A stretch of DNA of 64,000 nucleotides, from assembly GCF_009828925.2 (NCBI RefSeq), contig NZ_WUTY02000001.1, positions 4,184,492-4,248,491 of the forward strand, written 5' to 3'. Each line of letters starts with the position of its first letter. The first letter of the stretch is position 1. Under the pieces are notes generated by a model. It was not told the DNA's origin. It saw nothing but the letters and a program-made list of their open reading frames with translations, and did no database searches. The translations under genes were made by a program, and so were the position numbers. The DNA is from Methylicorpusculum oleiharenae. GTDB lineage: Bacteria > Pseudomonadota > Gammaproteobacteria > Methylococcales > Methylomonadaceae. Shown here piece by piece: positions 30,559 to 45,118 of this stretch.

Positions 30559-30719
30559 TATACCCATCGTAGATCGAAATTCGACACCGGGGTGCCCGTC
30601 AAAGAACGCCGTAAATACATCCCTATAAGCTCTATGTCAGCATCCATGCTGGCAAAGCCTTTGCCGAACAACCCGGTGCCTCCTTAGGCACTGCCGAAAT
30701 TTGAAGTGCGAAAGGTATA
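30559..30719 (+). repeat. MITE-like 161-bp repeat, copy D
   Basis: Full-length copy between rnr and tRNA-Leu, bounded by TATACC and GGTATA. It ends about 60 bp before the -35 box of the tRNA-Leu promoter. Confidence 0.88.
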
Positions 30720-30838: not shown

Positions 30839-30925
30839 GCCGAGGTGGTGAAATTGGTAGACACGCTAGCTTCAGGTGCTAGTGCTCGAAAGGGCGTGGA
30901 GGTTCAAGTCCTCTCCTCGGCACCA
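30839..30925 (+). tRNA. tRNA-Leu (anticodon CAG)
   Basis: 87 nt with the long variable arm of class II tRNAs. Acceptor GCCGAGG pairs with CCTCGGC, the anticodon loop TTCAGGT gives CAG, the T arm has GGTTCAAGTCC, and ACCA is encoded. Its last 18 nt are repeated at 45101-45118, marking it as the integration site of the downstream element, which regenerates the tRNA 3' end. Confidence 0.97.
30908..30925 (+). repeat. attL core of the integrative element
   Basis: GTCCTCTCCTCGGCACCA, the 3' end of tRNA-Leu, recurs exactly at 45101-45118. It is therefore the crossover core. Confidence 0.92.
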
Positions 30926-31048
30926 CAGCTTAATTTAACATAGCCTTTCAAAACACTTCAAGTTATTTATTTTCTTAAGAAATCAGCTTAATTTTTCGGT
31001 TTATTCCTGCCCGTTATTTTGCATTTTTACGCATTTTTCACTATTGTC

Positions 31049-31068
31049 TACACCATTTTTACACCATT
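31049..31068 (+). repeat. Left arm-type integrase/Xis sites
   Basis: Two direct copies of TACACCATT, at 31049 and 31060, are 11 bp apart, one helical turn. The inner right end carries the same TACACCA pair at the same spacing (45045 and 45056). Confidence 0.65.
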
Positions 31069-31104
31069 CCGAGCTTGTGCGAGGTCGGGTTAACAGGGGT
31101 TAGT

Positions 31105-32076
31105 GTGGCGACAATTATAAAGCGCGGTTCTACTTACCGGGTTCAGGTGTGCGTTGACGGTGTGCGTCGATCAGCAACAAAAGATACCAAACAGCAAGCG
31201 CGTGAATGGGCGCTGACTATGGAAGTCGAATTGAAAACCGGAAAACCGGCTGAAACGCTGGTCTATACGGTGGGTGATGCGCTGGAGCGTTACGGGCGGG
31301 AAGTGTCGGTGGGTAAGAAGGGTGAGCGGTGGGAGGTGATCCGGTTGGCCTTGCTGGGCCGTTATGCACTGGCAAGGGTGCGTCTGGCTGATTTAGCGCC
31401 TGAGGATCTGGCCTTGTGGCGGGATCAGCGCCTAAAGGAAGTGTCGGCGGCATCGGTTAATCGCGAACTAAATGTGCTGTCGTCGGTGTTTACCCATGCC
31501 AAACGGGAATGGCGGTGGCTGTCCGATAATCCGGTCCATGAAATTAAGCGGCCAAAGAACCCCCGGCCAAGGGACAGGCGTATAGATCCCGATGAGCTGC
31601 TGCGGGTGTTGGATGCGTTAGGTTATTCGCCCGATAAAGTTCCGGCAAAAAAAACACAACTGGTAGGTGCTTATTTTGTCCTGGCGATTGAAACGGCCTT
31701 AAGGTTGGGCGAGATTTGCGCGTTAACGGTTAATGATGCGGTGCTGGATCAGCGGTATTTGATCATTCGCGATTCAAAGAACGGAGATCAGCGACACGTT
31801 TCTTTATCGACAGTGGCCGTTGCGGTGATGAAACAGATCTTAGCTAGTGGCTTATCAGTCGATTCGGCCACGGCTGGACAGCTCTTCAGGAAGGCGATTA
31901 AACGCGCGGATATTACCGGGCTGCATTTCCATGATTCCCGGCATGAAGCCTTAACACGACTGGCTAGAAAGCTAGACGTTCTGGACCTAGCGCGAATGGT
32001 TGGGCATCGTGATGTTCGGTCGTTGATGATTTACTACAATGCGACAGCGTTTGAGATTGCCGGTAGACTGGGTTGA
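31105..32076 (+). CDS. int: Tyrosine recombinase (integrase)
   Basis: 323 aa from the GTG at 31105, which gives the usual phage-integrase N-terminus MATIIKRG and has AGGGG upstream. It has an N-terminal arm-binding domain, a SAM-like core-binding domain, and a C-terminal catalytic domain with Arg in TALRLGE, the HxxR pair HDSRH, His in VGHRD and Tyr in IYYNAT. It would integrate the element at tRNA-Leu. It lies about 180 bp from attL in the usual orientation. Confidence 0.93.
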   Translation: MATIIKRGSTYRVQVCVDGVRRSATKDTKQQAREWALTMEVELKTGKPAETLVYTVGDALERYGREVSVGKKGERWEVIRLALLGRYALARVRLADLAPEDLALWRDQRLKEVSAASVNRELNVLSSVFTHAKREWRWLSDNPVHEIKRPKNPRPRDRRIDPDELLRVLDALGYSPDKVPAKKTQLVGAYFVLAIETALRLGEICALTVNDAVLDQRYLIIRDSKNGDQRHVSLSTVAVAVMKQILASGLSVDSATAGQLFRKAIKRADITGLHFHDSRHEALTRLARKLDVLDLARMVGHRDVRSLMIYYNATAFEIAGRLG

Positions 32077-32287
32077 TTGAAAAATTAGGCTTTTCGCTTT
32101 AATAAGGCATTTGATAGAATCTGTTTTACCGGATAGGCCACGCGGGCCGATAAGAGGGAGTCGTTAACCCTTTTCCGGCATTACCTCATAACGCGCACAC
32201 TTAACGGAGTGCATCCCATGTTCAAGCCGCCCCACATAATCAGATTATCATTCTGCCGAGAACTGCTCATGCCTTGAGCGTTGCGTC

Positions 32288-32821
32288 ATGGCTGGATCTG
32301 GCAACCATCGAAAAGAACGCGTCAATGATGCGCCCACACCTACGCGTCAAACATTATTAGGCGGAGTCTGCACATCGTTAACGAAGGAAGAGATTGTCCG
32401 GCGTGACGTTGCCAAAGAAGCGATTGAAGCTTGCCGGGTAATCCTGGAGGAAATTTTAAGTGCTTATGCTGATGGCGAGCTGACATTTGAGAACGCAATA
32501 AAAACAGCAACCGAGGCAAGCAAGGCCGAACGCGTCCCTCGCGACTATCAAGCAAAAAAGATGCTTGCTGCATTTGTTCAAGCGTTAGTTAACATCACCC
32601 CAAAACCACGGACCAAATCAAGCGCCCGCTCTCAACCTTCCTGGTTAAAGAAGCTTGCTATAGAGCTTGTCAGTCTGGTTGTTGAGAAAGAAAGTCTGCC
32701 AAAATCCCGTGAATCAAAAAATCAAACGGCTTATGAGCGCGTATCGGAAATTTTAGACATGCGCGGAATAAAGCTATCTGTCCGAGAAATAGAACGGATT
32801 TATACTAAAAAACGTAATTAG
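32288..32821 (+). CDS. Unknown 177-aa protein of the element
   Basis: No recognised domain. It is mostly helical and charged, with a proline/lysine-rich linker (PKPRTKSSARSQP) at about 106-118 and a C-terminal segment ISVREIERIYTKKRN-like that could be a small HTH (RGIKLSVREIERIY). A DNA-binding or regulatory role is possible, but this is a guess. The start has no strong RBS; a later ATG is not available in the first third. Confidence 0.5.
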   Translation: MAGSGNHRKERVNDAPTPTRQTLLGGVCTSLTKEEIVRRDVAKEAIEACRVILEEILSAYADGELTFENAIKTATEASKAERVPRDYQAKKMLAAFVQALVNITPKPRTKSSARSQPSWLKKLAIELVSLVVEKESLPKSRESKNQTAYERVSEILDMRGIKLSVREIERIYTKKRN

Positions 32822-32972
32822 CCCCGGTCCGTCACCCTCGGCACGCCTCGCCACGTCTATATTGCGCAATCCCATAAAGATATTTAGACCCATTATCTCG
32901 AATTAGCGGGGTTTTTTCTGTGGTTTGGCATCAATATTATCAGGGCTCATTCATTCAAATGGGCTCAAACAG

Positions 32973-33233
32973 ATGGCAACACAAAATAAAGCAACAGACC
33001 GGAAAAGTAGAATTCCATTCTCGGTAAACCAATACCCGCCAATCGATTCAATCACCCGGGAGCTGCTGACAACCAATGAAGCAGCGTTTTACCTGTGTGT
33101 TAAACCCGCAACCTTGAATCGATGGAATTGTAAAAAAAATGGACCGATTAAAGCGACGTACATCGGCCGAAAAACACTTTACCGAATTGAGGACGTTAAA
33201 AAACTAATCAACGGTGAGGCGGTGAGCGTTTGA
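32973..33233 (+). CDS. AlpA/MerR-type HTH protein (excisionase-like)
   Basis: About 86 aa from the ATG at 32973. The C-terminal half is a winged-helix of the excisionase/MerR class: LLTTNEAAFYLCVKPATLNRW, then the wing ending YRIEDVKKLING. Such proteins bend DNA for excision or activate int and replication genes in satellites and plasmids. The stop overlaps the next start (TGATG), so it is coupled to the primase gene. Confidence 0.75.
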   Translation: MATQNKATDRKSRIPFSVNQYPPIDSITRELLTTNEAAFYLCVKPATLNRWNCKKNGPIKATYIGRKTLYRIEDVKKLINGEAVSV

Positions 33234-34180
33234 TGGACGGAGAAACGATAGAAGATAAGGCGCTCGCCACCCTTCTTGAGATGGGAATGATTCCTCCCAA
33301 GTCGCTTGCTCGTCGCGGCGGTTGGATTGAATGTTCAGTGGATAAGCCTGGGAACTCAGACGGCCGAGTGATGATTTTCGCCGATGGAAAGGGCGGCATA
33401 TGTCACAACTGGAAGGGCGGCGGAGAGCAGCGTACTTTTTTTCTGAATAGTGACGAAATTAAAACCCGGTCACTTTCAAAAGCAGAAAAAAGGCAAATCG
33501 AAAAAGCTAAACGCCAGGCCGAAGCAGATAGAGCCGCCAGATACGCAAAGGCTCAAAAATTAGCCATAAACTTTTGGGCGAACGGCAATCCGGCCACGGC
33601 TGATCATCCGTATCTAAAACGGAAGTCTGTGCTTCCCCACGGTACACGGCTTCATGACTATAAAGCAAAGCATCCCAGCGGCAACGGCACGATCACGATA
33701 CCCGGCTCGTTGATGATCCCCCTGTACAACGGCCAAGGCTTTATCGTCAGTTTGCAGTTCGTCTACCCTCACAAAAACCCGGTGCTAGGAAGAGACCGGA
33801 ACTTCTTAAGCGGCGCTCCGGCTGGCGGTCACTTTTGGTGGATCGGCAAACGCAGTACCGATCCAGATGAGCCGGTTTTGCTGTGTGAAGGGTTCGCCAC
33901 AGCGGCCACGCTACACGAGCAAACCGGATATCGCACTTACATGGCCTTTTCAAAAGATAGCCTTATCAAGGTCGCTCGATTACTCCGCGAACGCTTGCCG
34001 GATACGCCCATTACAATTTGTGCGGATAACGACACGGACCACCCGAAAGGCAATGTCGGCGTAAATGCAGCCAATGAGGCCGCTGAAGAAATCGGCGCCG
34101 CCGTTGCTATCCCGCCCATTCCAAACGCCGACTTTAACGACTACGCCGCGTATCTGAGGGAGCAAAATAATGAACAATGA
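33233..34180 (+). CDS. Toprim-domain primase-like protein
   Basis: 315 aa. An N-terminal zinc-less CHC2-like region (GRVMIFADGKGGICHNWKGG) is followed by a basic helix and a C-terminal Toprim domain with the acidic residues E in LLCEGFATAATLHE (about 219) and DNDTD (about 265-269). The layout resembles plasmid and satellite primases (TraC/P4 alpha-like). It would prime replication of the excised element. It overlaps the next gene by 11 bp. Confidence 0.85.
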   Translation: MDGETIEDKALATLLEMGMIPPKSLARRGGWIECSVDKPGNSDGRVMIFADGKGGICHNWKGGGEQRTFFLNSDEIKTRSLSKAEKRQIEKAKRQAEADRAARYAKAQKLAINFWANGNPATADHPYLKRKSVLPHGTRLHDYKAKHPSGNGTITIPGSLMIPLYNGQGFIVSLQFVYPHKNPVLGRDRNFLSGAPAGGHFWWIGKRSTDPDEPVLLCEGFATAATLHEQTGYRTYMAFSKDSLIKVARLLRERLPDTPITICADNDTDHPKGNVGVNAANEAAEEIGAAVAIPPIPNADFNDYAAYLREQNNEQ

Positions 34181-36173
34181 CGTTAGCAATAAACCCAGCA
34201 ATGTGAAATCCATCCTTGACGGCGCAAAGCCCAAAACGAAGAAAGGCAAAAGCGGCGGCGGTGCCAGCGATGAGATCATCATTTCCCCTGAGTACATGAT
34301 TAAAGACGGGCGGCCTGTTCAGCGTTACTGCAAGGCGAACGGCGATTTAAAATACATCCAGCTTGCGGATTCAGTGTTCAAGCTGGAAAGACAGATTATT
34401 CTCGAAACCTGTCTGAGTAAAAAAGCCGAAAAAAGTCTACTGGTATCTGCTCGGCGCTATGACGGAGTAAATCTTCCCGCCGTTGAAATCCCTAACGATG
34501 ACTTCAACAGTAGCCGGTCAAACTGGCCGAATTTGTATTTTGACACACGCGTTTACATTCCGGCAGGCATCTCAATCATTCAACACCTAAAATGCCTGAC
34601 CGAACTCCATTCGAAACAAATTCACGGCGGTGACCTTCCGGTCAAGACGGTTTATGACTATACAGGCTGGAAGGAAATTGATAACAAGTGGTGTTTTTTA
34701 ACGGGCTCAGGCGCTATTACTGAGAACGGCCTGTCCACGGATGTAGAGGTAAGGATGGGCGATGCCAATAACGAGCGATACCGGCTCCCCCCTCCTCTTG
34801 TCGGTGACGAATTAAGAGAAGCAACCGCGATTGTTTTGAAGTTGCTCGACGTTTGCCCCAATAAACCTGAAGTGGGCATCATGCTGCTTGCTGCGGTTGC
34901 GCGAGCGCCTTTGATCTCTGTACTGAAGTGCAGTGTTACCATCTGGCTGTACGGTGAGACGGGATCGCACAAGTCGGAGTTCGCCGCACTGGTTCTTGGA
35001 TTTTTTGGCGAATTTGACGCACAAAGCGCCCCGGGAAACTTTTCAGACAGCGCGGCTAACCGCGAATTAAAACTCTTCCAGGCCAAAGACGTTGTCTCAG
35101 TTATCGATGACTTCATACCGCCGAAAAACAAAATGGAGGCCGACAAGATGCACAGTGACGCGGCTCGCCTTATTCGTAATACCGGCAACGGCGTAGCCGC
35201 AGGACGATGTGAGAAAGACGGATCTGGCAGAAAGGACCGGCTCTGCCGGGCTTTGCCAATCGTCACCGCTGAAGATTTGCCGCGCGGTGAGTCAATACTT
35301 GGTCGAGCAATTATCATTAGCCTATCTGAGCACGACTTTAGCGAGGACACACTAACAGAGCTACAGCGCGCCAGGGAGGATAAAGTTTTATCAGGCTTTA
35401 TGTCGAGTTACCTGCAATGGCTTGCGCCTCGTATACCGCAATACCAGCCCAAAGGGGAGGCGAGTTTTAAAAAGTTTTGTGATGAGTATGCTCGCGAGTA
35501 TCGTCACCTTGAAATTAAAAAAACCCACGCCCGAGCCCCGGCCAATTTCGCCAATTTTGTCGCGGGGCTTGACGTGCTCGGGCGGTTCCTCGATGACTTG
35601 CAATTATTACCGGGCGGCACAAAGAGTATTGACCTTTTGAAACGTGCGGAGGCTGCTTTCAAAGAATTGATGGTCGACCAGTCGACCTACAAAGCCGTCG
35701 AGGATGGCGTTCAAGTGTTTCTTAACAACATTGTTACGCTACTGGTGAGTAAGTCCGTGCATCTTATCGATCACAAAGACCCAGACAAGCCAGCCGGTGG
35801 GACGAATACCACCGCAATCAAATGGGGGTGGAAACTGGTCAGTACCCAGATTGGCGGCGATAAATCGTACGGTCCAGCAGGGGACTGTATCGGTTATTTC
35901 GATATTGACCGTAATCTAGTGTACCTGGAGCCCGGCCTTGTAGAAAAGGCGCTTGCTCGGCATTGCGCACATGCCCCTATCGGTATGAGCATGTTAAGCC
36001 TTAAGCGGCGGTTACTGAGCCAAGGAAAGTTGGCAGATTGGAACAAGACCGACAATCGCGCAGAGAAGAAGGTTGCAACGCCTGTTCATGGCAACGCCCG
36101 GCCTTATGTTTTGGTGTTCGATCCGGGTACTTTTTACCCCACTGCAACAGCAAAATCCGACGAAAACGGCTAA
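34170..36173 (+). CDS. DUF927-like replication ATPase
   Basis: 667 aa. The Walker A motif is GETGSHKS (262-269), and the Walker B-like segment is VVSVIDDFIPPKNK. DUF927 proteins are P-loop ATPases found with Toprim primases in mobile elements and act as predicted replicative helicases. The stop at 36173 is followed at once by the iteron region, so the primase, the ATPase and a putative origin form one replication module. Confidence 0.82.
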   Translation: MNNDVSNKPSNVKSILDGAKPKTKKGKSGGGASDEIIISPEYMIKDGRPVQRYCKANGDLKYIQLADSVFKLERQIILETCLSKKAEKSLLVSARRYDGVNLPAVEIPNDDFNSSRSNWPNLYFDTRVYIPAGISIIQHLKCLTELHSKQIHGGDLPVKTVYDYTGWKEIDNKWCFLTGSGAITENGLSTDVEVRMGDANNERYRLPPPLVGDELREATAIVLKLLDVCPNKPEVGIMLLAAVARAPLISVLKCSVTIWLYGETGSHKSEFAALVLGFFGEFDAQSAPGNFSDSAANRELKLFQAKDVVSVIDDFIPPKNKMEADKMHSDAARLIRNTGNGVAAGRCEKDGSGRKDRLCRALPIVTAEDLPRGESILGRAIIISLSEHDFSEDTLTELQRAREDKVLSGFMSSYLQWLAPRIPQYQPKGEASFKKFCDEYAREYRHLEIKKTHARAPANFANFVAGLDVLGRFLDDLQLLPGGTKSIDLLKRAEAAFKELMVDQSTYKAVEDGVQVFLNNIVTLLVSKSVHLIDHKDPDKPAGGTNTTAIKWGWKLVSTQIGGDKSYGPAGDCIGYFDIDRNLVYLEPGLVEKALARHCAHAPIGMSMLSLKRRLLSQGKLADWNKTDNRAEKKVATPVHGNARPYVLVFDPGTFYPTATAKSDENG

Positions 36174-36500
36174 CTGTCCAAAAAATCTTGGACAGTGTCC
36201 AAGATTTTTATGATCAGAAAACCGCTGAAGGCCGCGTCATTGCTGACTCTGTCCAAACTGTCCAAGATGTCCAAGAAAAAAACACACCCCCCTTTTATAT
36301 AAAAAATATAAAAGGCGTGTGTCTATAGACGCAAACGTGTAAATATTTTTCCACAACACCCTTATATATATTTTTTTTGGACATCTTGGACAGAATATAT
36401 ATATATCGAATACAGCCCTTGATATAGCTGGATTCTTACTGTCCAAAACGACCTAAAAAAACTTGGACAGTAGGCCTCGTTTTTTGGACAGTTTGGACAG
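36174..36500. other. Putative origin: 12 TGTCCAA iterons around AT-rich core
   Basis: The 7-mer TGTCCAA or its complement TTGGACA occurs 12 times: 36175, 36188, 36196, 36250, 36259, 36268, 36377, 36386, 36440, 36463, 36484 and 36493. Several copies are spaced 9 bp in direct order. Left copies point mainly right and right copies mainly left. Between them lies an AT-rich tract (36344-36378 and 36395-36406) that could melt, and a hairpin of ACACAC/GTGTGT with CCTTTTATAT/ATATAAAAGG arms. It follows the primase and ATPase genes directly. Confidence 0.75.
36181..36209. terminator. Perfect palindrome after the ATPase gene
   Basis: AAAAATCTTGGACA-G-TGTCCAAGATTTTT is a 14-bp perfect inverted repeat that incorporates two iterons and ends in T5. 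It can act as a bidirectional terminator as well as a protein-binding site. Confidence 0.6.
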
Positions 36501-36532
36501 TTGGAAGTGGAAAACACATTTTTTAACGCCTA

Positions 36533-36802
36533 ATGACATCTAAAATTGCAGCCAAAATGACACCTAAACCCATTATTTCTGAAAAATTTGTAGCCAAAAG
36601 CGTCTATATAGGTGTCTATTTTGAGAAAAAAACCAAAAAACAGATTTACATTGATGGGCTTTTTTGCGACAGCCACTTATCCGGCTTGATTTCTTTAGGT
36701 GCGGTCAGGTTTATAAAAATGGGCTTTTCAACCGCTCCGATGATTTCCAAAAACAACCCTGCGCAAATGTGTGTCTATGAGGCGCAAACGTGCGTCATGT
36801 AG
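36533..36802 (+). CDS. Unknown 89-aa protein (doubtful)
   Basis: The frame is open between the iteron region and the next gene, but there is no RBS and no recognisable domain. It ends in a stretch that repeats part of the iteron region (GTGTGTCTAT...GCGCAAACGTG), so part of it may be control DNA rather than coding. Confidence 0.3.
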   Translation: MTSKIAAKMTPKPIISEKFVAKSVYIGVYFEKKTKKQIYIDGLFCDSHLSGLISLGAVRFIKMGFSTAPMISKNNPAQMCVYEAQTCVM

Positions 36803-37302
36803 CCAATGATGCGGTGGTTAGACTGTTCGCCGCCTGGTTAAAGCTGTTTTCCGTTAGCGGATACCAACCCAGCAGCAATAGATCGCCCACGCTTCTTGAG
36901 CGGCCTGACAGCCTGGTTAAGCTCGACTTTGCTAACCGGGATCAGTGGACGCTCTCAGACTGGCGTGATTACGCCACTCACTTAGAACACCGCCGTTATC
37001 AACCTGGATCTCGACACCTGCCAAGTGGTAACGGCTTTAGCACCCTGCTTTGCCGTGACGCGTCGAAAAAATCAAAAAGAGGCCGCAAGCCCAGCATTGA
37101 ATTAAACGCCGCTATCGATGACTACATTAGCCAGATTCACGCGCTGCAATGCCGGTCTTTAGAAAAGCTATCGGATAAAAAAGCAATACGCTTGATTGAT
37201 AAAGCGCTGGGCGGTCGTCCGGCATTGCTTGCGCACTTATCTCTGCGAACATTCCAAAATCACTTAACGATAAAGCGCAATCAAGGCAAAAAACCCTGTT
37301 AA
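36790..37302 (+). CDS. Unknown 170-aa protein of the element
   Basis: It starts at a GTG that overlaps the previous frame by 13 bp. It has a basic middle segment KKSKRGRKPS (about 95-104), reminiscent of an AT-hook/GRKP tail, followed by a helical C-terminal half. It may bind DNA, but I recognise no family. Confidence 0.5.
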   Translation: MRHVANDAVVRLFAAWLKLFSVSGYQPSSNRSPTLLERPDSLVKLDFANRDQWTLSDWRDYATHLEHRRYQPGSRHLPSGNGFSTLLCRDASKKSKRGRKPSIELNAAIDDYISQIHALQCRSLEKLSDKKAIRLIDKALGGRPALLAHLSLRTFQNHLTIKRNQGKKPC

Positions 37303-37428
37303 ATCAATGGCGTTTTGTCCCGCTAATGTATGCGCTTATACCAATGAATTAACGGGATTTTATTCAAAAGGAGTTCCAGGCTAGCTGCGGTATCATATCT
37401 TCAACCTGTTGTATAGAGTTAATTAGAA

Positions 37429-37719
37429 ATGAGTGAACGCATTGTTGCCAAAGTCAGAAATGAGCATCTAAAAAAGGTCAAGGACGTTGAAACGGATCTG
37501 ATTGATCTGATACCGGATATCAACGACCTCACCCAACGCGCTGGCGTTATTGGCTCTAAGTTAGTCGGAGTAAACCCATCAGGTTATCGAGAGCTGTTAA
37601 TCCTTGAACAGTTTGCGGATATATGGCAACTCTTAAGCAACTTAGCACTTACCGTTAACCACCTGCTAACGAATGAAGAGCCCGAAGAAGAGACACAGGA
37701 AAGCGACGAATGGAATTAA
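37429..37719 (+). CDS. Unknown 96-aa acidic protein
   Basis: Helical, ending in a very acidic tail (NEEPEEETQESDEWN). No known domain. It overlaps the next gene by 10 bp, and begins an operon-like run of small genes that reaches 40424. Confidence 0.55.
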   Translation: MSERIVAKVRNEHLKKVKDVETDLIDLIPDINDLTQRAGVIGSKLVGVNPSGYRELLILEQFADIWQLLSNLALTVNHLLTNEEPEEETQESDEWN

Positions 37720-38051
37720 CAAAGGCAGAAGCCAAACGCCTAGAGCAGAAAGCCAGAATCAAACGATTCAAAAAAGAGCTTGATGAGGAATTCAGGCTAA
37801 TAGGCGATTACGGCTCTTTGGCAGTTGCTCATCCATTCATCAAGCATTACCGAAAATTGCAAGAACTCGCTGAAAAGGATTTTCAGAACCGGCCACGGCA
37901 CAGCAAGCGCAAGCTGATCTTTGAACACTACCTGGGCAAAGGCGCAATCGTAAAGATGCCGTATGCCGTCCTGCGATATGGCGGCTTTGTCATCGTGCCC
38001 CCTAAGCGGTTCAGCGAAGCCAGACGCATATTGTTACACCTGGATAGATGA
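37710..38051 (+). CDS. Unknown 113-aa basic protein
   Basis: Lysine/arginine-rich, with an N-terminal coiled helix (about residues 3-30). It overlaps both neighbours (10 bp and 4 bp), which strongly supports translation in this operon. No family recognised. Confidence 0.55.
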   Translation: MELTKAEAKRLEQKARIKRFKKELDEEFRLIGDYGSLAVAHPFIKHYRKLQELAEKDFQNRPRHSKRKLIFEHYLGKGAIVKMPYAVLRYGGFVIVPPKRFSEARRILLHLDR

Positions 38052-38233
38052 GGCGCGAAATGATTGTTATTTGCCACACCTGCAGCCGATTTGAGGATGG
38101 CTACTACTGCCAAGCCTTGAAACAACATGCACCGCAAGGCATGACCCAATGCCCACAGTACGAACACGACCAAACCAAAACCCAGGGCGACAAGCCCAAA
38201 ACCCAATCTAAACATGGAGTAAAACCCCAATGA
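38048..38233 (+). CDS. 61-aa cysteine-containing microprotein
   Basis: The first half has four cysteines (CHTC, C, C) that may bind zinc; the second half is a polar Gln/Lys tail. It overlaps the genes on either side as ATGA. Function unknown. Confidence 0.55.
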   Translation: MRREMIVICHTCSRFEDGYYCQALKQHAPQGMTQCPQYEHDQTKTQGDKPKTQSKHGVKPQ

Positions 38234-38967
38234 AAAAACCTGAAAATACATTGCCCATCGACAGAGACTTGAAAGGCAGCAACAAAACAGCAACCTCGAT
38301 TGCTACCTTGCAAGCCCAGATCCTTAGCAAACAACAACAGCTTGAAAGCCTGGAAGGAAAAATTAAGCACTGTGAAGATATTGCGCTAATCAATGAAAGG
38401 CCGCTGCTTACTGAGATCATCGACCTGAAAACGAATCAGGAAATAGGCCAAAGCATAGATGAAAAGCGATTAACCCAGCTTCAGGACGATCTGAAAGCGG
38501 CCAAGACGCATAACGCCGATGCGGTCCAGCTTAACCAGCAGCGTCAGCAAGTATCGCAAGCCATGCTAAACCGGAGCACAGCATTAACGGCAGAGATTGA
38601 GGCACTTAAAAAGCAGCTAACGGGACTGATTGTGGCCGAGCTTGAATCTGAGCTTAACAGCCAAAGAGAACTGTATAGAAGTCAATGCCTGGCCTTTATC
38701 AGCAGCCTGTCAAACGCTCACCACCTGTCTGAAAAGATCAGGCAACTAACCCTGAGCAAAGATCCGCACAGGTATCACATACAAGCAGAAGTGGAAGTCC
38801 CCAGCTTCTACAATGAATATCGTCTCGTCATCCCTGCCTTGCCAGCCTTGCCCAACCCTGGCAACCCGAACTACCTACAAATCCGTCACGGCCAAGAGTT
38901 ACCGGCCAGCACTATTGTAGAAAAAGTATTCCTGACAGCCGGAATTGAAGCTTCCCTAATGGCGTAA
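38230..38967 (+). CDS. Unknown 245-aa coiled-coil protein
   Basis: Residues about 20-160 form a long predicted coiled coil with a Gln-rich repeat pattern; the C-terminal 70 residues look globular (VEVPSFYNEYRLVIPALPALPNPG). No family recognised. ATGA-coupled to the upstream microprotein. Confidence 0.55.
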   Translation: MKKPENTLPIDRDLKGSNKTATSIATLQAQILSKQQQLESLEGKIKHCEDIALINERPLLTEIIDLKTNQEIGQSIDEKRLTQLQDDLKAAKTHNADAVQLNQQRQQVSQAMLNRSTALTAEIEALKKQLTGLIVAELESELNSQRELYRSQCLAFISSLSNAHHLSEKIRQLTLSKDPHRYHIQAEVEVPSFYNEYRLVIPALPALPNPGNPNYLQIRHGQELPASTIVEKVFLTAGIEASLMA

Positions 38968-38992
38968 AAATTAACCAACCCGAGAGTAAACT

Positions 38993-39316
38993 ATGAATAC
39001 TGTACAAAAACCAAGACACAGCCGTTTTTTTGTGATTGATGGCGTGGCGTGTGGTGGTTACATCCACAATTCAAACACACCCCAAACGCTTGATGAGGTC
39101 GCAGCCATGCACCCGAACTATCAAAAAATCCAAGCCCTTGATGAAAACGGCGTTGTCCTTGATGATGAACTGATTACCCCAACAGGCGGTGAGAATACAT
39201 TCGGTCATTCGGATCTCATGAAGCGGCATATTGACCTGATCGATAAAATGGTCGATGCGTTTGTACTGGAAACACCTGTATTGGGTGGCGATCCAGAAGC
39301 GGGGCACTATGAGTAA
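38993..39316 (+). CDS. Unknown 107-aa protein
   Basis: Mixed alpha/beta, acidic, with RBS-like GAGAG before the ATG. No recognised domain. The next gene starts inside its last codons. Confidence 0.5.
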   Translation: MNTVQKPRHSRFFVIDGVACGGYIHNSNTPQTLDEVAAMHPNYQKIQALDENGVVLDDELITPTGGENTFGHSDLMKRHIDLIDKMVDAFVLETPVLGGDPEAGHYE

Positions 39317-39497
39317 CGCTGCACGAATTGATGCGGCCCGCAGCGGAGCAATGGCCGCTCAAGCGGAACGCCCCGCCAAGATACGACTTGAGATTGCTAA
39401 ATTACAGGAAATAGTGCCGCAGACCGATCAAACCCGAAGAGAGATTGAAAGCCTAAAAAATGAAATCGCCATGCTCAATGCTTGCGGCTATAACTAA
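39309..39497 (+). CDS. Unknown 62-aa helical protein
   Basis: The ATG at 39309 overlaps the upstream stop (ATGAGTAA). The predicted product is a single amphipathic coiled helix rich in Ala, Arg and Glu. Confidence 0.5.
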   Translation: MSNAARIDAARSGAMAAQAERPAKIRLEIAKLQEIVPQTDQTRREIESLKNEIAMLNACGYN

Positions 39498-39522
39498 ATT
39501 TTAACTGTTTGGAGAAAATATC

Positions 39523-39774
39523 ATGTCAACTGCACCTACTCACCCCATTAAAACCCTGGCTGACGTTCAAGCCGCCCTTCGCAATCCTGAAACTAAAAAC
39601 TGGACGCAAGCCCGGCCGCACGCTATCCGTGAACGTTTGGGCGCTATAACCCGTCATCATAGCTTAGAAAATTTGCCCGCAATGATTGGACAGGCTAAAG
39701 CAGCGCCATTAGTCGCCGAACATGCTGAACTTTCGGCGGAACTGGCCCTTCTTTATCAACACGGTTTGAAGTGA
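39523..39774 (+). CDS. Unknown 83-aa protein
   Basis: GGAG lies 8 bp before the ATG. The predicted product is helical, without a known domain. It is spaced tightly between neighbours in the same operon-like run. Confidence 0.5.
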   Translation: MSTAPTHPIKTLADVQAALRNPETKNWTQARPHAIRERLGAITRHHSLENLPAMIGQAKAAPLVAEHAELSAELALLYQHGLK

Positions 39775-39784
39775 GGTAGCCGCC

Positions 39785-40255
39785 ATGACCAGAGAGGAAG
39801 AGATAGCGTATCTAAGGCAGATTAACGTCCAGCGTGAAATTGGGCTGAACGCCATCACCGCGAAAACTCACCCGGCTGTGCGTATGGAAGCTATGGCCGA
39901 AGAGCGGAAAAAAGAGATGGACAGACCAAAGCCGCCGCCACCCGTCAAAATGGCCGCGCCTGTAGATCAACCCGAAGCGAATAGAACGATTGCTGAGCCT
40001 GGCATAAACGTTCGAGGTCGTTACCGAGACCACAACCCCAGACGGAAAATCCCAGAGACTGAGCTTGCAGCCAATGAGCGGCTGAGGGTTCATCATCCGG
40101 ATGGTTCAACAGAGATTGCCCCCGCTGGTTTGAAATCTGTAAACGAAGCCTGGGCTAACTTCCCCGACTCTAACCAAATCGATCGCGTAACCATCAACGG
40201 GAAAGGAGTTCCTGTAGCTATTCACAAACTTAAAAAGCGCACATCGCGGGGTTGA
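39785..40255 (+). CDS. Unknown 156-aa protein
   Basis: It has a helical N-terminus, a proline-rich linker (DRPKPPPPVKMAAP) and a basic C-terminal half. No family recognised. A small gene starts 1 bp after its stop. Confidence 0.5.
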   Translation: MTREEEIAYLRQINVQREIGLNAITAKTHPAVRMEAMAEERKKEMDRPKPPPPVKMAAPVDQPEANRTIAEPGINVRGRYRDHNPRRKIPETELAANERLRVHHPDGSTEIAPAGLKSVNEAWANFPDSNQIDRVTINGKGVPVAIHKLKKRTSRG

Positions 40256-40256
40256 T

Positions 40257-40424
40257 ATGTTTATTAGTCATCCTGAATTTAATGCTCGCCGGGGTCGCGT
40301 GGTCGAGGTGAACATGAGGCTTTTGATCGCTGATCTGTCATCTTCAAGCCCGTGGAAGCGAAGGCTTGCCATTAAAACGATGCAATCGCTGAAAGGCTGC
40401 AAACTGATTTACTCTCATCGATAG
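40257..40424 (+). CDS. 55-aa basic microprotein
   Basis: Starts MFISHPEFNARRGR directly after the previous stop (TGATATG) and ends at TAG 40424. It is rich in Arg and Lys. Its stop lies inside a terminator hairpin, so it is the last gene of this transcription unit. Confidence 0.5.
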   Translation: MFISHPEFNARRGRVVEVNMRLLIADLSSSSPWKRRLAIKTMQSLKGCKLIYSHR

Positions 40425-40437
40425 CAGCCGGGGTTTT
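40395..40437 (+). terminator. Terminator of the first small-gene operon
   Basis: The stem GGCTGC (40395-40400) and GCAGCC (40424-40429) is followed by GGGGTTTTT. A second hairpin (CATGCTGGC/GCCAGCATG) lies at 40441-40464. Confidence 0.6.
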
Positions 40438-40562
40438 TCTCATGCTGGCAATCAGGCCAGCATGAACACGGTTTAAGCCTTAGCATTGCATTGGCATTTT
40501 TGAATCGTCTTGTGGTGGCGATTTTTGGCGGTTTAGCGGCATACCTGGAACAATCCACTTGG

Positions 40563-40617
40563 AAGTGTAATATCAAGCGTAATTACGGTAATTACGTAGT
40601 TATCATAATTACACTTA
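40563..40617. promoter_or_regulatory. GTAATTAC-type inverted repeats
   Basis: Outer arms AAGTGTAAT and ATTACACTT enclose two GTAATTAC palindromes. It lies at the 3' end of the 47-aa HTH gene. It may be an operator array or that gene's terminator. Confidence 0.45.
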
Positions 40618-40761
40618 TCATTCACGGTTTATTGTGGTTGTCCCAATGCCCAATATTTCAGCGGCGGTTTGAATGGATTTTGATTGTCGTGCGTTTTTTT
40701 GCAGCTTGGGACGTTTCTGTATCAAGCGGCAAATTTTCAGGCTTTTTGTACTGGTTGCCAT
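40618..40761 (-). CDS. 47-aa helix-turn-helix protein
   Basis: A very short minus-strand gene with an excellent RBS (GGAGGAAATC before the ATG). The N-terminus is strongly basic, and the C-terminal half IQTAAEILGIGTTTINRE fits a helix-turn-helix. It is the only clear minus-strand gene of the element and faces the leader of the 41133 gene. A repressor or antirepressor role is inferred from position. Confidence 0.6.
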   Translation of the reverse strand: MATSTKSLKICRLIQKRPKLQKNARQSKSIQTAAEILGIGTTTINRE

Positions 40762-40876
40762 GATTTCCTCCGGCTTGCCGCTTCCGTTCCAGAGCTTCAG
40801 CTTCGAGCCTAAACCATGCCGGACATACTCGGCTTGTAACGGTCAATTTATTTCAACAAATATGATTAAAAATGCT

Positions 40877-40927
40877 TTGAAAAGTTTGAATCTTAAGGTA
40901 AAATTAAATCGTCATAAAAATTATGAC
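40877..40927 (+). promoter_or_regulatory. Promoter and GTCATAA-N3-TTATGAC operator
   Basis: TTGAAA and TAAAAT boxes are 16 bp apart (40877-40904). A perfect 17-bp palindrome GTCATAA-AAA-TTATGAC covers the expected start site (40911-40927), an arrangement typical of repressor control. A short CCGC/GCGG hairpin with T7 follows at 40963-40981, so the first transcript may be attenuated. Confidence 0.55.
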
Positions 40928-41009
40928 ACAGGGTTGGTCTCCTGAATCTCTCGGCGCAATAGCCGCTAACGCGGTTTTTTTATGCGTATAATATCAGTTT
41001 CGATTATGT

Positions 41010-41075
41010 CGGGCTGGTAGAGCAGCCGCAAGGCTGGCTAGTTCCGAGAGCTAGTAGACCAACTCTATCAGTCCG
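41010..41075 (+). ncRNA. Predicted three-way-junction RNA in the 41133 leader
   Basis: P1 is 13 bp (41010-41022 with 41063-41075, two G-U pairs). P2 is CAGCC-GCAA-GGCTG (41023-41036), closed by a GNRA tetraloop. P3 is CTAGTTC-CGA-GAGCTAG (41038-41054, one G-U). The only unpaired junction bases are G41037 and 41055-41062. A TATAAT box at 40987-40992 would start a transcript just before P1. I recognise no known family; hammerhead and tRNA rules are not met. Confidence 0.6.
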
Positions 41076-41132
41076 GCTCCCAATGATTGGTCTCATGGTT
41101 GCCGGGTTTATTTACTCTCTCGGAGCTATACC

Positions 41133-42278
41133 ATGAACTCGCAAAACACCCAAGCACAAAACCAATTCCACGCCGTTATTTTTGTCGATCAAAAAGCCGC
41201 TTTACTTGCCGGTAACGATCAATACGGCTCTCTTAAAATCCCCTTCAAACCTTCTGAACTGTCCGAACAGCAACGCCTTACCCTGGCTAAGTTCAATTTT
41301 TCATTGAATGATTCGATTGTAGGTAAGCCTATCAATGGCACTGAATCACTTGCTGAACTGCTTGATATAGCCGCTCAAAAACTGGCCGCTGACGCGCTGG
41401 CACAAGCCGCAGAAGATCGTCAATGTGTTGATTTAATGATTGCCAAACTATTAGATGCTCCCCTGGCTGACGATCTGGCACTGAATGAAGAAACGGGACA
41501 GGTGGTTATTCAACCGGCTAAGCCAATACCCTTACTAAGAATCGATAGCCATACCAGCGTCAAACGATCTTGGTTAGATTTTTTTAGTGTTCTTTGGGTC
41601 AGTCCTGCTACAGGTGGAAGTGACCGCGCCAAGGCAATCAGGGCGACCGTTTTAAGCTACCCCGATGTTGTACAGCGACTTGTTACGGCTGAAGAACATG
41701 CCGCCGAACTTGAGCAACGCTTAGAAGCTGCCCGCTTCACCCGTGGACGCTTAGCTACTGAAAAAAGAGAAATTCAGGAAAGACTTGATGCGGAAGCCAA
41801 AATCCGCCGCGCTGAGCAATTAGGCGTGTTCGTTATGACACACATGCCGATTCTATCCCAGCAAAAGTGGGCAAATGAATTATTGCCTGAGTCGGATATT
41901 ATCCAGGCCATGACCGCCAAAACCTTTGAACCGCTGGACCATTTCAAGCCCATCAATCAGGAATTACTCAAGCTTTCAATATCCGATTATTGTCTCGATC
42001 AGTTGCCCGTCTATGCTGAGCCTTCACAGGTACGATCCATTGAACGAACTTTGGAACAACTGACTGACGAACAGTTTTTGCAGTTACGGGCGATTAAAGA
42101 AGCTGTGAAATGCCATTTTCAAAACGCTACTGTGATGCAATACCTTTTGGTTGGCTATTTGGCGGATTATTCAGGCGACAGTGACCCAGAGTATTGTCTC
42201 CCGGTTGTGCGCGTCACTGTTACGGTGGGCGAGATAAGCCTTAGCCGTGAATATGCTTTAACCGCTGGCAATGAATAA
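41133..42278 (+). CDS. Unknown 381-aa protein of the element
   Basis: Largest unknown gene in the element. RBS TCGGAG lies 8 bp before the ATG. Residues about 185-235 form a coiled coil (Glu/Arg-rich); the C-terminal third is mixed. No catalytic motif is visible. It follows the structured leader RNA and is probably its regulated target. It is followed after 11 bp by the next gene. Confidence 0.6.
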   Translation: MNSQNTQAQNQFHAVIFVDQKAALLAGNDQYGSLKIPFKPSELSEQQRLTLAKFNFSLNDSIVGKPINGTESLAELLDIAAQKLAADALAQAAEDRQCVDLMIAKLLDAPLADDLALNEETGQVVIQPAKPIPLLRIDSHTSVKRSWLDFFSVLWVSPATGGSDRAKAIRATVLSYPDVVQRLVTAEEHAAELEQRLEAARFTRGRLATEKREIQERLDAEAKIRRAEQLGVFVMTHMPILSQQKWANELLPESDIIQAMTAKTFEPLDHFKPINQELLKLSISDYCLDQLPVYAEPSQVRSIERTLEQLTDEQFLQLRAIKEAVKCHFQNATVMQYLLVGYLADYSGDSDPEYCLPVVRVTVTVGEISLSREYALTAGNE

Positions 42279-42289
42279 GGGGGTTTATC

Positions 42290-42697
42290 ATGAAATCTAT
42301 CCCCACTACAGTTTCATTCGGCCCAAGATCCGCTGAAGATCATGCACGACACGATGCCGCCAATGTTGATTTTATCCGACAAATGCGAGAGTACAGGGAA
42401 GAGTGCCAGGCTGTTATCAGCCAAGGTGAACCGGCTTTAATTCGCTTGGTGGAGGTTGCCAAGAACGATACAGGCCAATCACTGAAAATTCGCCGGTTCT
42501 TATTGGGGCTTTATAATGGATATGACAACCCGTTTGATCTGACACAGTTGCGCGGCTTGGATAAGTTGCTCTTTGAAGATTGCATGTCTGTTTTGCGGCT
42601 TGACGCTCGCGTTACAGCCCAGGAGGTTCATTGCTATGTTCATGATGGTGATGCGCTGTTTGAGTCTTGGGCATTGGATGCAAGGGGGAAATCATGA
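42290..42697 (+). CDS. Unknown 135-aa protein
   Basis: Acidic alpha-helical protein; no recognised family. Its stop overlaps the start of the wHTH gene (ATGA), so they are co-translated. Confidence 0.55.
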   Translation: MKSIPTTVSFGPRSAEDHARHDAANVDFIRQMREYREECQAVISQGEPALIRLVEVAKNDTGQSLKIRRFLLGLYNGYDNPFDLTQLRGLDKLLFEDCMSVLRLDARVTAQEVHCYVHDGDALFESWALDARGKS

Positions 42698-43194
42698 GCC
42701 TTAATTATCTTAACGCAGCGTTTAAAGCACCCTTAACAGGGGCAAACAAGGCGGTATTGATTGCGCTGGCCGACAGGTGCAACGATGCCGGTTATTGTTA
42801 CCCCGCGTTAAAAGATATTGCCTTACGTGCTGGAATATCGACTAGGACAGTAACACGCGCAGTTGAAGCGCTAGAAAAAAAAGGCTATTTAGCAATAATC
42901 CGAACATCCGGAGCAACGAACAAATACATTTTATTTGCCGGTAAATTGTCCGAAATACTGCCCACAACCCTAGACAATCCCACTTATCAACAGATAGATA
43001 CGACTTCTAACCCCTTAGACATAGTGTCTTTAAGGGCTAGACGTGAGCGGGGGGAGAGTTTAGACATGGCTTCTAATAAACCATCATATAACCGTCATTT
43101 AACCACCAATAAACCATTAATGGACGATGAAAAAAACCCAAAACGAGCGATGGAATTTAGAAAAATGCGTGGGTTGTTGAGGGGGAAAAAATGA
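42694..43194 (+). CDS. Winged-helix replication-type protein
   Basis: 166 aa from the ATG at 42694 (overlapping the previous stop). Residues about 20-75 form a wHTH (YPALKDIALRAGISTRTVTRAV, then KKGYLAII) as in phage replication initiators and MarR-like helix_turn_helix_36 proteins. The C-terminal half is polar and low in order. It could be a replication-organising or transcription factor of the element. Confidence 0.75.
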   Translation: MSLNYLNAAFKAPLTGANKAVLIALADRCNDAGYCYPALKDIALRAGISTRTVTRAVEALEKKGYLAIIRTSGATNKYILFAGKLSEILPTTLDNPTYQQIDTTSNPLDIVSLRARRERGESLDMASNKPSYNRHLTTNKPLMDDEKNPKRAMEFRKMRGLLRGKK

Positions 43195-43259
43195 GAAAGC
43201 TGATTACACAAGACGAACTAAAGCGGCTGCTTAGTGATAACCTGGAGGTGCAATCATGA
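43191..43259 (+). CDS. 22-aa coupled mini-ORF
   Basis: MRKLITQDELKRLLSDNLEV-type peptide overlapping the neighbours by ATGA at both ends. It may be only a coupling ORF that carries the ribosome to the next gene. Confidence 0.35.
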   Translation: MRKLITQDELKRLLSDNLEVQS

Positions 43260-43417
43260 ATTTCCAGTTATTGAAAAACGGCAAGGTTTTGGCTTACATA
43301 AACACCAGACACCTAACGGCACAGATTCTTTTCGAGCTGCAAAGACGGGGCTACACATTGTCTTTTAGTCCGTTGTCTTTCTTTCATGTCATAAATTTAG
43401 GGAGGATCGAACCATGA
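43256..43417 (+). CDS. 53-aa basic microprotein
   Basis: RBS GGAGG lies 7 bp upstream. ATGA overlaps occur on both sides. No family recognised. Confidence 0.5.
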   Translation: MNFQLLKNGKVLAYINTRHLTAQILFELQRRGYTLSFSPLSFFHVINLGRIEP

Positions 43418-43572
43418 ATGAAGAACTCGTTAAGGCGGGCTATCTGGCCTATGAGAGGAACGCGCAATGTTTAACCGATGGGAATGTATCAGTTGCGGTC
43501 TATTGTGTTCTGGTGGGCTTGCTGTTCGGTTTTTTCCTGTCTTTGTTTGTCGATCTGAGGGGCGGAAGATGA
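43414..43572 (+). CDS. 52-aa single-pass membrane microprotein
   Basis: RBS GGGAGG is well placed. One hydrophobic helix (about residues 26-46, VAVYCVLVGLLFGFFLSLFV) follows a polar N-terminus. This size and shape fit a phage or satellite membrane effector, such as a holin-like or exclusion peptide, but nothing proves it. ATGA-coupled on both sides. Confidence 0.5.
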   Translation: MNEELVKAGYLAYERNAQCLTDGNVSVAVYCVLVGLLFGFFLSLFVDLRGGR

Positions 43573-43973
43573 TTATGATTTATCCAGTATCACCAAGCCA
43601 GCGGCGGAAATTTGAAGTTCAGAATTACGCGGATCCAGCTTTTCATTCTAAAGTGATTACCCAAGCCGCACGTATCGTAAAAGACTTTAGAAATTATCAC
43701 TGGCAGTATTGCGAAATTGCCGAACCGATTAGTTCATCGTTTTTTTATCCGACAGCTCCGGCAGAGTTAACGCTTGTGCATCCCTTCACGCTTGAACAGA
43801 TTGCCGCCAACAATGTTATGGCCGGAATGGTTAGCACAGCTTATGCACTGAAAGCCGAAATCGAGAGAGGGAAATTGTTTTATCGGGATAAGTTTATGGC
43901 GCTTAAGCAGATTACCAGCGAATACGCAGACGAAACAGATCAAGTTGCAGCGTTTCTTTTGATGATTGACTAA
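43569..43973 (+). CDS. Unknown 134-aa protein
   Basis: The ATG at 43569 overlaps the previous stop and is preceded by GGCGGA; the longer upstream frame is not needed. Mostly helical; no family recognised. Confidence 0.55.
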   Translation: MIMIYPVSPSQRRKFEVQNYADPAFHSKVITQAARIVKDFRNYHWQYCEIAEPISSSFFYPTAPAELTLVHPFTLEQIAANNVMAGMVSTAYALKAEIERGKLFYRDKFMALKQITSEYADETDQVAAFLLMID

Positions 43974-43981
43974 AGACCGCC

Positions 43982-44293
43982 ATGAACGAACAAAACGACT
44001 TATTTGCTGATATTCCGGAAGCTTTAGAAAAATGCCCTGTGTGTTTGGTTGGCGCCGGCCACCTGAGAGACGTAAGTTATTCTCTTGATTGGCCGCCCAT
44101 GTTTGCCGTGATGAGTTACGTTTGTGACCGTTGCGGCTGGTCTTGCGCGGGTTACGTTAAAAAAGATAACTACTTGGCAATATTAAGCCGGAGGTGGAAC
44201 AACCCAAACAAATACATTATTGAAAGCGTAAGATTAAAGCTAGGCATCAGCTTGAATGATGACTTAACACGACCCACGAACGCGCTTGAATGA
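43982..44293 (+). CDS. Zinc-ribbon protein, Lar-like
   Basis: 103 aa with CPVC (about 18-21) and CDRCGW (about 50-55) zinc knuckles, then NYLAILSRRWNN, which resembles the closing AxxAWNxR motif of Lar-type restriction-alleviation proteins. Phage Lar modulates type I restriction-modification enzymes. The match is by pattern only. Confidence 0.55.
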   Translation: MNEQNDLFADIPEALEKCPVCLVGAGHLRDVSYSLDWPPMFAVMSYVCDRCGWSCAGYVKKDNYLAILSRRWNNPNKYIIESVRLKLGISLNDDLTRPTNALE

Positions 44294-44308
44294 ACCGATA
44301 ACTTTTAG

Positions 44309-44340
44309 AACCGGCTTACACATCAGTAGCCGGTTTTTTT
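44309..44340 (+). terminator. Rho-independent terminator
   Basis: AACCGGCT and AGCCGGTT arms with a T7 run, 16 bp after the stop of the Lar-like gene. Confidence 0.85.
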
Positions 44341-44387
44341 CGACGCTTGGGCGGTACTTTTAATTTTTAACGATGGGAGTTTGGCAA

Positions 44388-44678
44388 ATGAGAACAGAAT
44401 CATACGGCTGCGATGGGAAAGTTTACGGCAATAAATTTTGGATGATTGGCAAGTTTGATGACGATACAGGTTCAAGCCTGAAGTTCTTCATTGCCGAAAA
44501 TCACGAGGTTGAAAAAGTCGTTTTTTTTGACGGTGAAAAAGTGGCTTGTCAAAATTTCACGAGCAAACAAGATTTTTCAAACATTGAAGAGCTTGACGCG
44601 TCACAAATAAGCAGCTTGATATGGGATTTACTTGAAGAGTCTTTAACGGACCAAACAGGAGCAGCAAGCAATGAGTAA
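44388..44678 (+). CDS. Unknown 96-aa acidic protein
   Basis: The ATG at 44388 is preceded by GGGAG about 9 bp away; an in-frame ATG at 44373 has none. Beta-rich N-terminal half, acidic helical C-terminus. Overlaps the next gene by 8 bp. Confidence 0.5.
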   Translation: MRTESYGCDGKVYGNKFWMIGKFDDDTGSSLKFFIAENHEVEKVVFFDGEKVACQNFTSKQDFSNIEELDASQISSLIWDLLEESLTDQTGAASNE

Positions 44679-44964
44679 GTTGTTTATCGGTGTCGAGTAC
44701 GTGAGCGGCAGAAAAACCACGACCGGAACACCCAACCCAAAAACCGGCAGATTATCGAAAGCGGTTAAAACTGAACTTTTTACGACAAAGGCCGCGCGTG
44801 ACGCGTGGGTAAACCGGGGCAAGGTTACTGCCGATATGCGCGGTAATTGCCGAGAGGCTGAAACGCTTGCAGGACTTAGAGCTTTACATGCCGGAATGAG
44901 CAAGAAAGACTTTGACGAAATGATGCGTATGCTGGAAGTGGACCAAGGGAATGATGGGCATTGA
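44671..44964 (+). CDS. Unknown 97-aa basic protein
   Basis: GGAGCAGC lies before the ATG. The sequence has a Lys/Thr-rich loop and a C-terminal helix (MSKKDFDEMMRMLEV). No family recognised. It is the last gene before attR. Confidence 0.5.
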   Translation: MSKLFIGVEYVSGRKTTTGTPNPKTGRLSKAVKTELFTTKAARDAWVNRGKVTADMRGNCREAETLAGLRALHAGMSKKDFDEMMRMLEVDQGNDGH

Positions 44965-45044
44965 CAACTTAAAAAGCTTTTTCCCAAGATGGAACATGCC
45001 CGAAAGATTTAAACGATGATAAAAACCTAGTTTTTTATTAACTT

Positions 45045-45102
45045 TACACCAAACTTACACCAAAATACTTGTAACACTATGATTATATAAGTATTTTGGT
45101 GT
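45045..45102 (+). repeat. Right arm-type sites and inverted repeat next to attR
   Basis: TACACCA occurs at 45045 and 45056, 11 bp apart as at the left end. The second copy is part of a perfect 14-bp inverted repeat, ACACCAAAATACTT (45057-45070) and its complement (45089-45102), which runs into the att core. Confidence 0.7.
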
Positions 45103-45118
45103 CCTCTCCTCGGCACCA
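45101..45118 (+). repeat. attR core
   Basis: Exact repeat of the last 18 nt of tRNA-Leu (30908-30925), without the rest of the tRNA; it marks the right end of the element. Confidence 0.92.

Follow-up and report, generated by a model that had tools for sequence, protein, structure and literature searches.

The question raised by this locus is what kind of mobile element has entered a tRNA-Leu gene of Methylicorpusculum oleiharenae. We analysed a window of 64,000 nucleotides (the whole stretch, G000:C1:4184492-4248491, contig NZ_WUTY02000001.1) from a 5.85-Mb genome in 3 contigs, which carries a 14.2-kb element that a sequence-only reading had taken for either a satellite using a helper or an integrated plasmid of a new type. 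A gene of the particulate methane monooxygenase family (PF02461, 1.3e-130) is present in the host genome, and PF02461 was detected in 193 of the 237 genomes of the host's family, its own included, which makes this a methanotroph family. Our results indicated that the element is very probably an integrated, apparently intact P4-type phage satellite, as judged from its sequence.

Site-specific insertion into tRNA-Leu(CAG)

The boundaries of the element were set by the following features.

30839..30925, + strand: tRNA-Leu(CAG), the integration target (ARAGORN), with an empty site in genomes G032 and G005
30908..30925, + strand: left att core at the tRNA 3' end, exact 18-bp repeat
45101..45118, + strand: right att core, exact 18-bp repeat

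The 18-bp direct repeat was exact at 30908 and 45101, and the distance from core to core was 14,193 bp. We searched two same-genus genomes with the left flank, and in both (2/2) the tRNA ran straight into right-flank sequence. Specifically, tRNA and right flank formed one contiguous match of 229 bp in G032 (90.8%) and one of 238 bp in G005 (79.8%), indicating that the element is an insertion of 14,193 bp. With the integrase gene beside tRNA-Leu(CAG), these results bear out the sequence-only reading, which had inferred a mobile element from the 18-bp core and the integrase and had proposed a check across the empty site; genome comparison supplied that check, and the site was unoccupied in both same-genus genomes examined. 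As far as such comparisons go, they show that the element is inserted site-specifically into the 3' end of tRNA-Leu(CAG).

The C4 antisense RNA control region

We then examined the region in front of gene o381, where an Rfam scan and motif searches gave the following candidate features, together with the three genes that they precede (RBS, ribosome-binding site).

40877..40904, + strand: sigma-70-like promoter ahead of the C4 leader, by consensus match alone (1 site, against 1.1 expected by chance)
40911..40981, + strand: isrK-like leader with a1 and b1 boxes (40933-40940, 40948-40954; RF01394, 32.6 bits against a gathering score of 50, E 0.0007)
40961-40976, + strand: terminator-like stem-loop within the leader (1 found, 0.6 expected)
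41002..41083, + strand: C4 antisense RNA (b' 41044-41050, a' 41056-41063; RF01695, 51.5 bits against a gathering score of 45, E 1.3e-7)
41086..41125, + strand: a2 and b2 target boxes up to the o381 RBS (b2, 41117-41123, overlaps GGAG)
41133..42278, + strand: o381, the first gene after C4 (relatives confined, in the searches made, to elements B, C and G092)
42290..42697, + strand: DUF7673 protein (PF24720, 9.2e-28)
42667..43194, + strand: O-like winged-helix replication initiator (phrog_391, 1.6e-15; PF13730, 1.4e-11)

The b' segment CCGAGAG (41044-41050) complements CTCTCGG both at 40948-40954, before the terminator, and at 41117-41123, and a' matches the boxes at 40933-40940 and 41086-41093. 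Fold and complementarity to leader and RBS together show that the element carries a predicted C4 RNA. As yardsticks, P4 (NC_001609) scored 74.9 bits for C4 and 60.8 bits for isrK, and phiAH14b of Pseudomonas sp. ANT_H14 (KU708005) scored 89 bits for C4 and 48.8 bits, just below threshold, for isrK. The host genome holds two further elements, B (L031) and C (L055). Across 20 elements scanned with Rfam, C4 was above the gathering score in 18; element C reached 44.3 bits (threshold 45), and no C4 was found in L043.

To compare C4 RNAs with leaders, we calculated the duplex energy of each C4 with each leader among the 18 elements with distinct C4 segments, leaving out L094, whose C4 is identical to that of L093. 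The results showed a mean of -25.8 kcal/mol for cognate pairs vs -17.7 kcal/mol for non-cognate pairs, and none of 20000 permutations reached the cognate mean. With the upstream 120 bases as the target, the means were -29.3 vs -21.0 kcal/mol (0/20000 permutations). Both controls were flat, with -12.7 vs -12.8 kcal/mol for coding sequence (11074/20000) and -17.2 vs -17.6 kcal/mol for the reversed leader (14597/20000). Within its own genome, the window C4 clearly favoured its own leader (-28.6 vs -15.1 and -18.7). These findings show that predicted C4-leader pairing is element-specific across the 18 elements, which suggests that the C4 pairs are a readable immunity code.

In P4 and P1, the C4 RNA terminates its leader and blocks translation downstream. 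On this basis, a transcript of the window element would yield C4 RNA, which would terminate its own leader and block the o381 RBS, and o381, DUF7673 and the initiator would stay silent.

Replication genes and comparison with known satellites

We considered 27 open reading frames (ORFs), all on the + strand, of which Pfam searches covered 26, PHROGs 27, and NCBIfam and PADLOC 10 each. Integration and replication were assigned to the following features.

31075..32076, + strand: tyrosine integrase (PF00589, 9e-22; phrog_1, 1.4e-50; the true start may lie downstream of TTG)
32126..32194, + strand: int-alpA RNA-like element after the integrase gene (RF02996, 32.2 bits against a gathering score of 35.8, E 0.002)
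32925..33233, + strand: AlpA-like HTH_17 regulator or excisionase (PF12728, 6e-5, below cut-off; phrog_66 excisionase, 1.8e-6)
33230..34180, + strand: Toprim_3 primase (PF13362, 1.9e-8; phrog_2249, 3.7e-56)
34170..36173, + strand: P-loop ATPase of 667 aa, putative replicative helicase (Walker motifs read by eye; relatives in family genomes)
36172..36506, no strand: crr-like iteron region with 12 TGTCCAA in both orientations

The recognised families were the integrase, the AlpA-like HTH_17 protein, the Toprim_3 primase, DUF7673 and the O-like initiator. Except for o245, whose match to WTAP (E 0.003) was taken for coiled-coil noise, the remaining ORFs had no library match at E <0.01. The sequence-only reading had left about 20 small genes unplaced, which largely holds, although DUF7673, the initiator and three RNA features (one above and two below the Rfam threshold) now have a place. 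Its statement that capsid, terminase, relaxase and mating genes are absent agrees with our scans, in which neither these families nor tail or portal families gave a significant match.

The Toprim primase-like gene that had been proposed was confirmed by both libraries, and over 177 columns the protein shared 31% identity with P4 alpha (E 3e-13). The ATPase had been called DUF927-like; it does look like a P-loop ATPase, but the DUF927 label is weak, since there was no Pfam match and only 1 of 6 aligned members matched DUF927 (E 0.13). Its hhalign probability was 72% to phiAH14b p16 and 20% to P4 alpha, and 23 of 151 family genomes held a relative. Among plasmids, 30 records matched, 17 of them from Rhodococcus, and none over 80% of the ATPase length; the Rhodococcus relatives listed are annotated as telomere-binding protein (~25-28% identity). 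The iteron array proposed earlier proved real, with TGTCCAA occurring 12 times in 36175-36499, directly behind the ATPase gene, vs 7 times elsewhere in the 64 kb (whole-window expectation 9.7). The int-alpA-like block (32111-32215) was 89% identical in sister B, where it scored 34.8 bits, and int-alpA was above the Rfam threshold in 7 of 20 elements scanned (L050, L059, L095, L098, L099, L102 and L105).

We compared this layout with known satellites. P4 likewise has a tyrosine integrase, an AlpA-type regulator, a Toprim primase and C4 RNA with an isrK-type leader, and its crr iterons, with TGTTCAC within them, adjoin alpha as the window iterons adjoin the ATPase gene. Unlike P4, the window element has its primase and ATPase as two proteins, the latter not recognisable as D5-type; its C4 stands before o381-DUF7673-initiator instead of upstream of the alpha operon, and no Sid, Psu, Delta or epsilon was found in Pfam and PHROG scans. 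The likeness to phiAH14b covers Int, AlpA, a separate Toprim_3 primase and helicase, C4 RNA and a missing terminase or structural set; in contrast, phiAH14b has its C4 early, before the primase, and encodes Rha as well as a tail-assembly gene with a homologue in its helper. Its authors induced phiAH14b with mitomycin C and conclude, in the available part of their paper, that helper capsids serve to package it (PMC4936722).

According to the available part of PMC8628076, P4-like satellites are defined by seven components, namely integrase, AlpA, alpha, Delta, Sid, Psu and epsilon. Integrase was present in the window element (PF00589), and AlpA with modest similarity. For alpha, likeness was seen in the Toprim part (31%), the helicase being a separate protein (hhalign 20%). 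Delta was not found (no PF04606 in 26 ORFs), although it is present in relatives L050 and L102; Sid and Psu gave no match in the ORFs scanned, nor did epsilon, for which no dedicated profile was run. Since it falls short of these seven components, the element does not belong among P4-like satellites in the strict sense of that account; we file it as a variant, which looks as if it works like one.

Phage-inducible chromosomal islands (PICIs) and their capsid-forming kind (cfPICIs) resemble the window element in size, integrase, AlpA and primase. cfPICIs carry their own capsid-forming set, of which none was recognised in the 27 ORFs, where no capsid or packaging gene was significant. By description only, the element also resembles PICMI of Vibrionaceae, which the available part of PMC10803314 presents as small satellites without capsid-remodelling genes.

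Related elements, orphan genes and the nature of the element

We compared 19 elements, the window element included, drawn from about 46 candidate loci and not as a blind sample. Loci were selected by an att repeat, by o381, or by DUF7673 plus the initiator, and those with unknown or contig-cut ends were dropped before counting. DUF7673 was above cut-off at 25 places in 15 of the 237 family genomes, and no paper on it was found in the open-licence PMC literature. An exact direct repeat touching a tRNA or tRNA-like end was present in 17 of the 19 elements; L048 had a 32-bp repeat just beside its tRNA, and the ends of L056 were not found. Related elements in other genomes, on which the sequence-only reading had made its claim depend, do exist, with shared parts and sizes of about 8-17.6 kb. 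Four short ones carry a serine recombinase of the DNA invertase family besides the tyrosine integrase (L042:9042-9608, and the same cluster in L041, L043 and L045).

Recognised virion genes, one or few each, were found in 10 of the 19 elements, a count that may be too low, the family libraries having been run on chosen ORFs of the relatives. A head protease and a capsid protein were found in L048, a capsid protein in L055, and a head protease and a decoration protein in L056, while the L099 protease rests on BLASTP to that of L056 (33%). L093 and L094 had a small terminase (TerS); L093 additionally encoded a PmgG-like head protein and a protein with an endolysin domain, and the PmgG-like gene of L094 was assigned by clustering. 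L050, L059, L102 and L104 had tape measure proteins of 548-834 aa by PHROGs, an assignment that Pfam supported in L050 and L102 but not in L104. In these four (L050:6499-8973, L059:6014-8518, L102:11780-13576, L104:7568-9214), the ORFs scanned yielded the tape measure as virion gene. An Ogr/Delta-type regulator was found in L050 and L102 (Pfam), with phrog_603 in L050 and L098 and the L059 gene assigned by clustering. The virion genes lay upstream of C4 in 7 of the 10 (L048, L055, L056, L093, L094, L102, L104) and near the distal end in L099, L050 and L059. In L048 and L104, they stood directly between the ATPase gene and C4, where the window element and B hold o96 to o55.

Element B has the same gene order as the window element, and a 14-bp repeat there adjoins what by eye is a tRNA-Leu 3' half, ARAGORN calling no tRNA. 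Protein identity between the two was mosaic (ATPase 28%, o381 98%, o103 93%), and their DNA aligned in six blocks at 74-89% identity, alternating with non-aligning DNA. Element C lies at tRNA-Ser(TGA) with an 18-bp repeat and has o381, DUF7673, the initiator and two small genes in common with the window element. Its major capsid gene is of the HK97 type (phrog_10, 2.4e-35; PF05065, 1.1e-26; HK97 gp5, 33%), and the capsid protein had no other relative in the host genome at E 0.001. In search of a shared packaging site, the window element and B were each compared with C by blastn; outside genes and the C4 region, this gave nothing but short matches (E >=0.17) and one 91-bp B-C match. The capsid proteins L055:11702-13036 and L048:9999-11405 have a similar hydrophobic start by eye, and the protein L055:10891-11340, shortly before the capsid gene, holds a duplicated stretch (MVAARLANMTASDF twice).

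These relatives bear on the possibility that the element is a decaying prophage remnant, in which integrase, immunity RNA and replication genes survived while the virion genes disappeared. The primase and DUF7673 do have relatives in ordinary phages, and the initiator belongs to phage O-like families. However, the att repeats and the C4 pairing are intact, as are the reading frames of integrase, primase and ATPase, elements of this size range with shared parts recur in other genomes, and two sisters sit in the same genome, so that a remnant appears very unlikely.

The remaining ORFs, all on the + strand, were as follows.

32288..32821, + strand: 177-aa protein (sub-threshold holin matches only, E 0.026 in Pfam, below cut-off, and 0.079 in PHROGs)
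36533..37302, + strand: two small ORFs of 89 and 170 aa (sister B holds a homologue of the 170-aa protein, in another place)
37429..38233, + strand: o96, o113 and o61, the start of the stretch between replication region and C4 (o96 and o113 have homologues in sister B)
38230..38967, + strand: o245, a long helical protein (43% to sister B), at a guess a candidate assembly-redirecting protein
38993..40424, + strand: o107, o80, o83, o156 and o55 (relatives seen only in sister B)
43256..44964, + strand: small genes o53, o52, o168, o103, o101 and o97 (o52, o168 and o103 82-93% identical in sister B)

Neither the holin match nor a sub-threshold match of 43467-43973 to a virion structural family (E 0.057) was relied on. 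Nine small genes of unknown function, o96 to o55, lie between the replication region and C4. The AlphaFold2 (AF2) model of o245 had a helix at 78-174 (97 residues), and residues after ~170 were not confident; no sequence relative was found in viral or genome collections and no fold match in the PDB. Profile matches to o245 in 44 of 237 genomes were, beyond the two own elements, short (profile positions 102-210, E 1e-5 to 1e-3); they were taken for coiled-coil noise and not counted. The AF2 model of o381 (predicted local distance difference test, pLDDT, 79; predicted template modelling score, pTM, 0.45) had no fold match in BFVD or the PDB at E 0.001. No relative of o107 or o381 was found in viral contigs, and o156 was confined to the two own elements among the 237 family genomes. 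Our guess is that o245 and its neighbours (o96 to o55) have helper assembly or packaging as their target.

Such orphans (o245, o107, o156, o381 and others) could also be virion proteins that no library recognises, in which case the element would be a very small phage able to propagate by itself, and in the searches made o245, o107 and o156 had relatives only in the two own elements and o381 only in four. We consider this still less probable than a remnant, given that no ORF of the window element matched a terminase and that the 10 relatives with virion genes hold only a few each, in the part of their ORFs scanned. Least probable of all, and set aside for its lack of a relaxase and its P4-kind control region, is the integrated plasmid of the sequence-only reading, or an element mobilised by conjugation functions in trans: the replication module with iterons and the DUF7673 relatives on 167 plasmid records (57 typed conjugative) would fit it, but no relaxase or mobilisation family was found in the ORFs scanned, C4 control and relatives with virion genes stand against it, and the ATPase matches on plasmids are partial.

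The P4-type satellite thus remains the preferred reading, and the earlier suggestion of a satellite with a helper gains support from the C4 immunity RNA, the P4-like replication layout, the relatives with virion genes and phiAH14b, which shares the Toprim_3 primase and C4. Several points weigh against it. The cognate C4 was the best partner for only 12 of 18 leaders, and the cognate leader for 15 of 18 C4s; the C4 of B pairs with the leader of C (-22.9) nearly as with its own (-23.8), so that B and C may cross-act. Promoter-like and terminator-like sites were about as many as chance gives, the isrK-like and int-alpA-like matches were below Rfam thresholds, and the tie of the ATPase to P4 alpha is weak. 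Helper, excision and packaging are unobserved. A search of the host genome for a resident helper with one large terminase (TerL) family (phrog_2) gave two weak matches (E 8e-9 and 7e-8), rejected as TerL after their surroundings were read by eye as RecD- and RecQ-like helicases. Finally, helper dependence is argued from the relatives, because no ORF scanned in the window element gave a significant Ogr/Delta, Sid, Psu or virion match.

Outside the element, a dispersed repeat of ~160 bp (window 30559-30719) precedes tRNA-Leu, is absent at that place in the same-genus genomes and has ~40 matches in each of two of them; it looks like a MITE (miniature inverted-repeat transposable element) or a REP-like (repetitive extragenic palindromic) repeat. 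G+C was low (0.28-0.37) at window 45001-47000 and 49001-51000, around a peak of 0.55 at 48-49 kb.

For the P4-type satellite, a life cycle can be proposed in which the arrival of a helper phage would relieve C4 silencing, the integrase and AlpA-like protein would excise the element, and primase, ATPase and iterons would replicate it. The helper would then supply terminase, capsid and tail, and its proteins would package the element. Tentatively, the elements may form a mosaic satellite group with C4 immunity and DUF7673 in common, whose members take over different helper assembly steps (capsid protein, protease/decoration, small terminase, tape measure); in the window element and its sister, the genes o96 to o55, helical o245 among them, might redirect virion assembly by a mechanism not described so far, and three such elements with non-identical C4 RNAs would share one genome.

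The available part of a published survey places P4-like satellites in Enterobacterales (PMC8628076). Among the open-licence PMC matches listed (titles and abstract openings), no paper dealt with satellites of methanotrophs or with a tape measure as their virion gene. If the mosaic group is real, a tape measure protein on a satellite would set tail length or DNA delivery, and such genes would allow a test of whether tails are remodelled as well as heads. For the methanotroph family, the finding would mean P4-type control on elements whose replication ATPase differs and whose virion parts vary.

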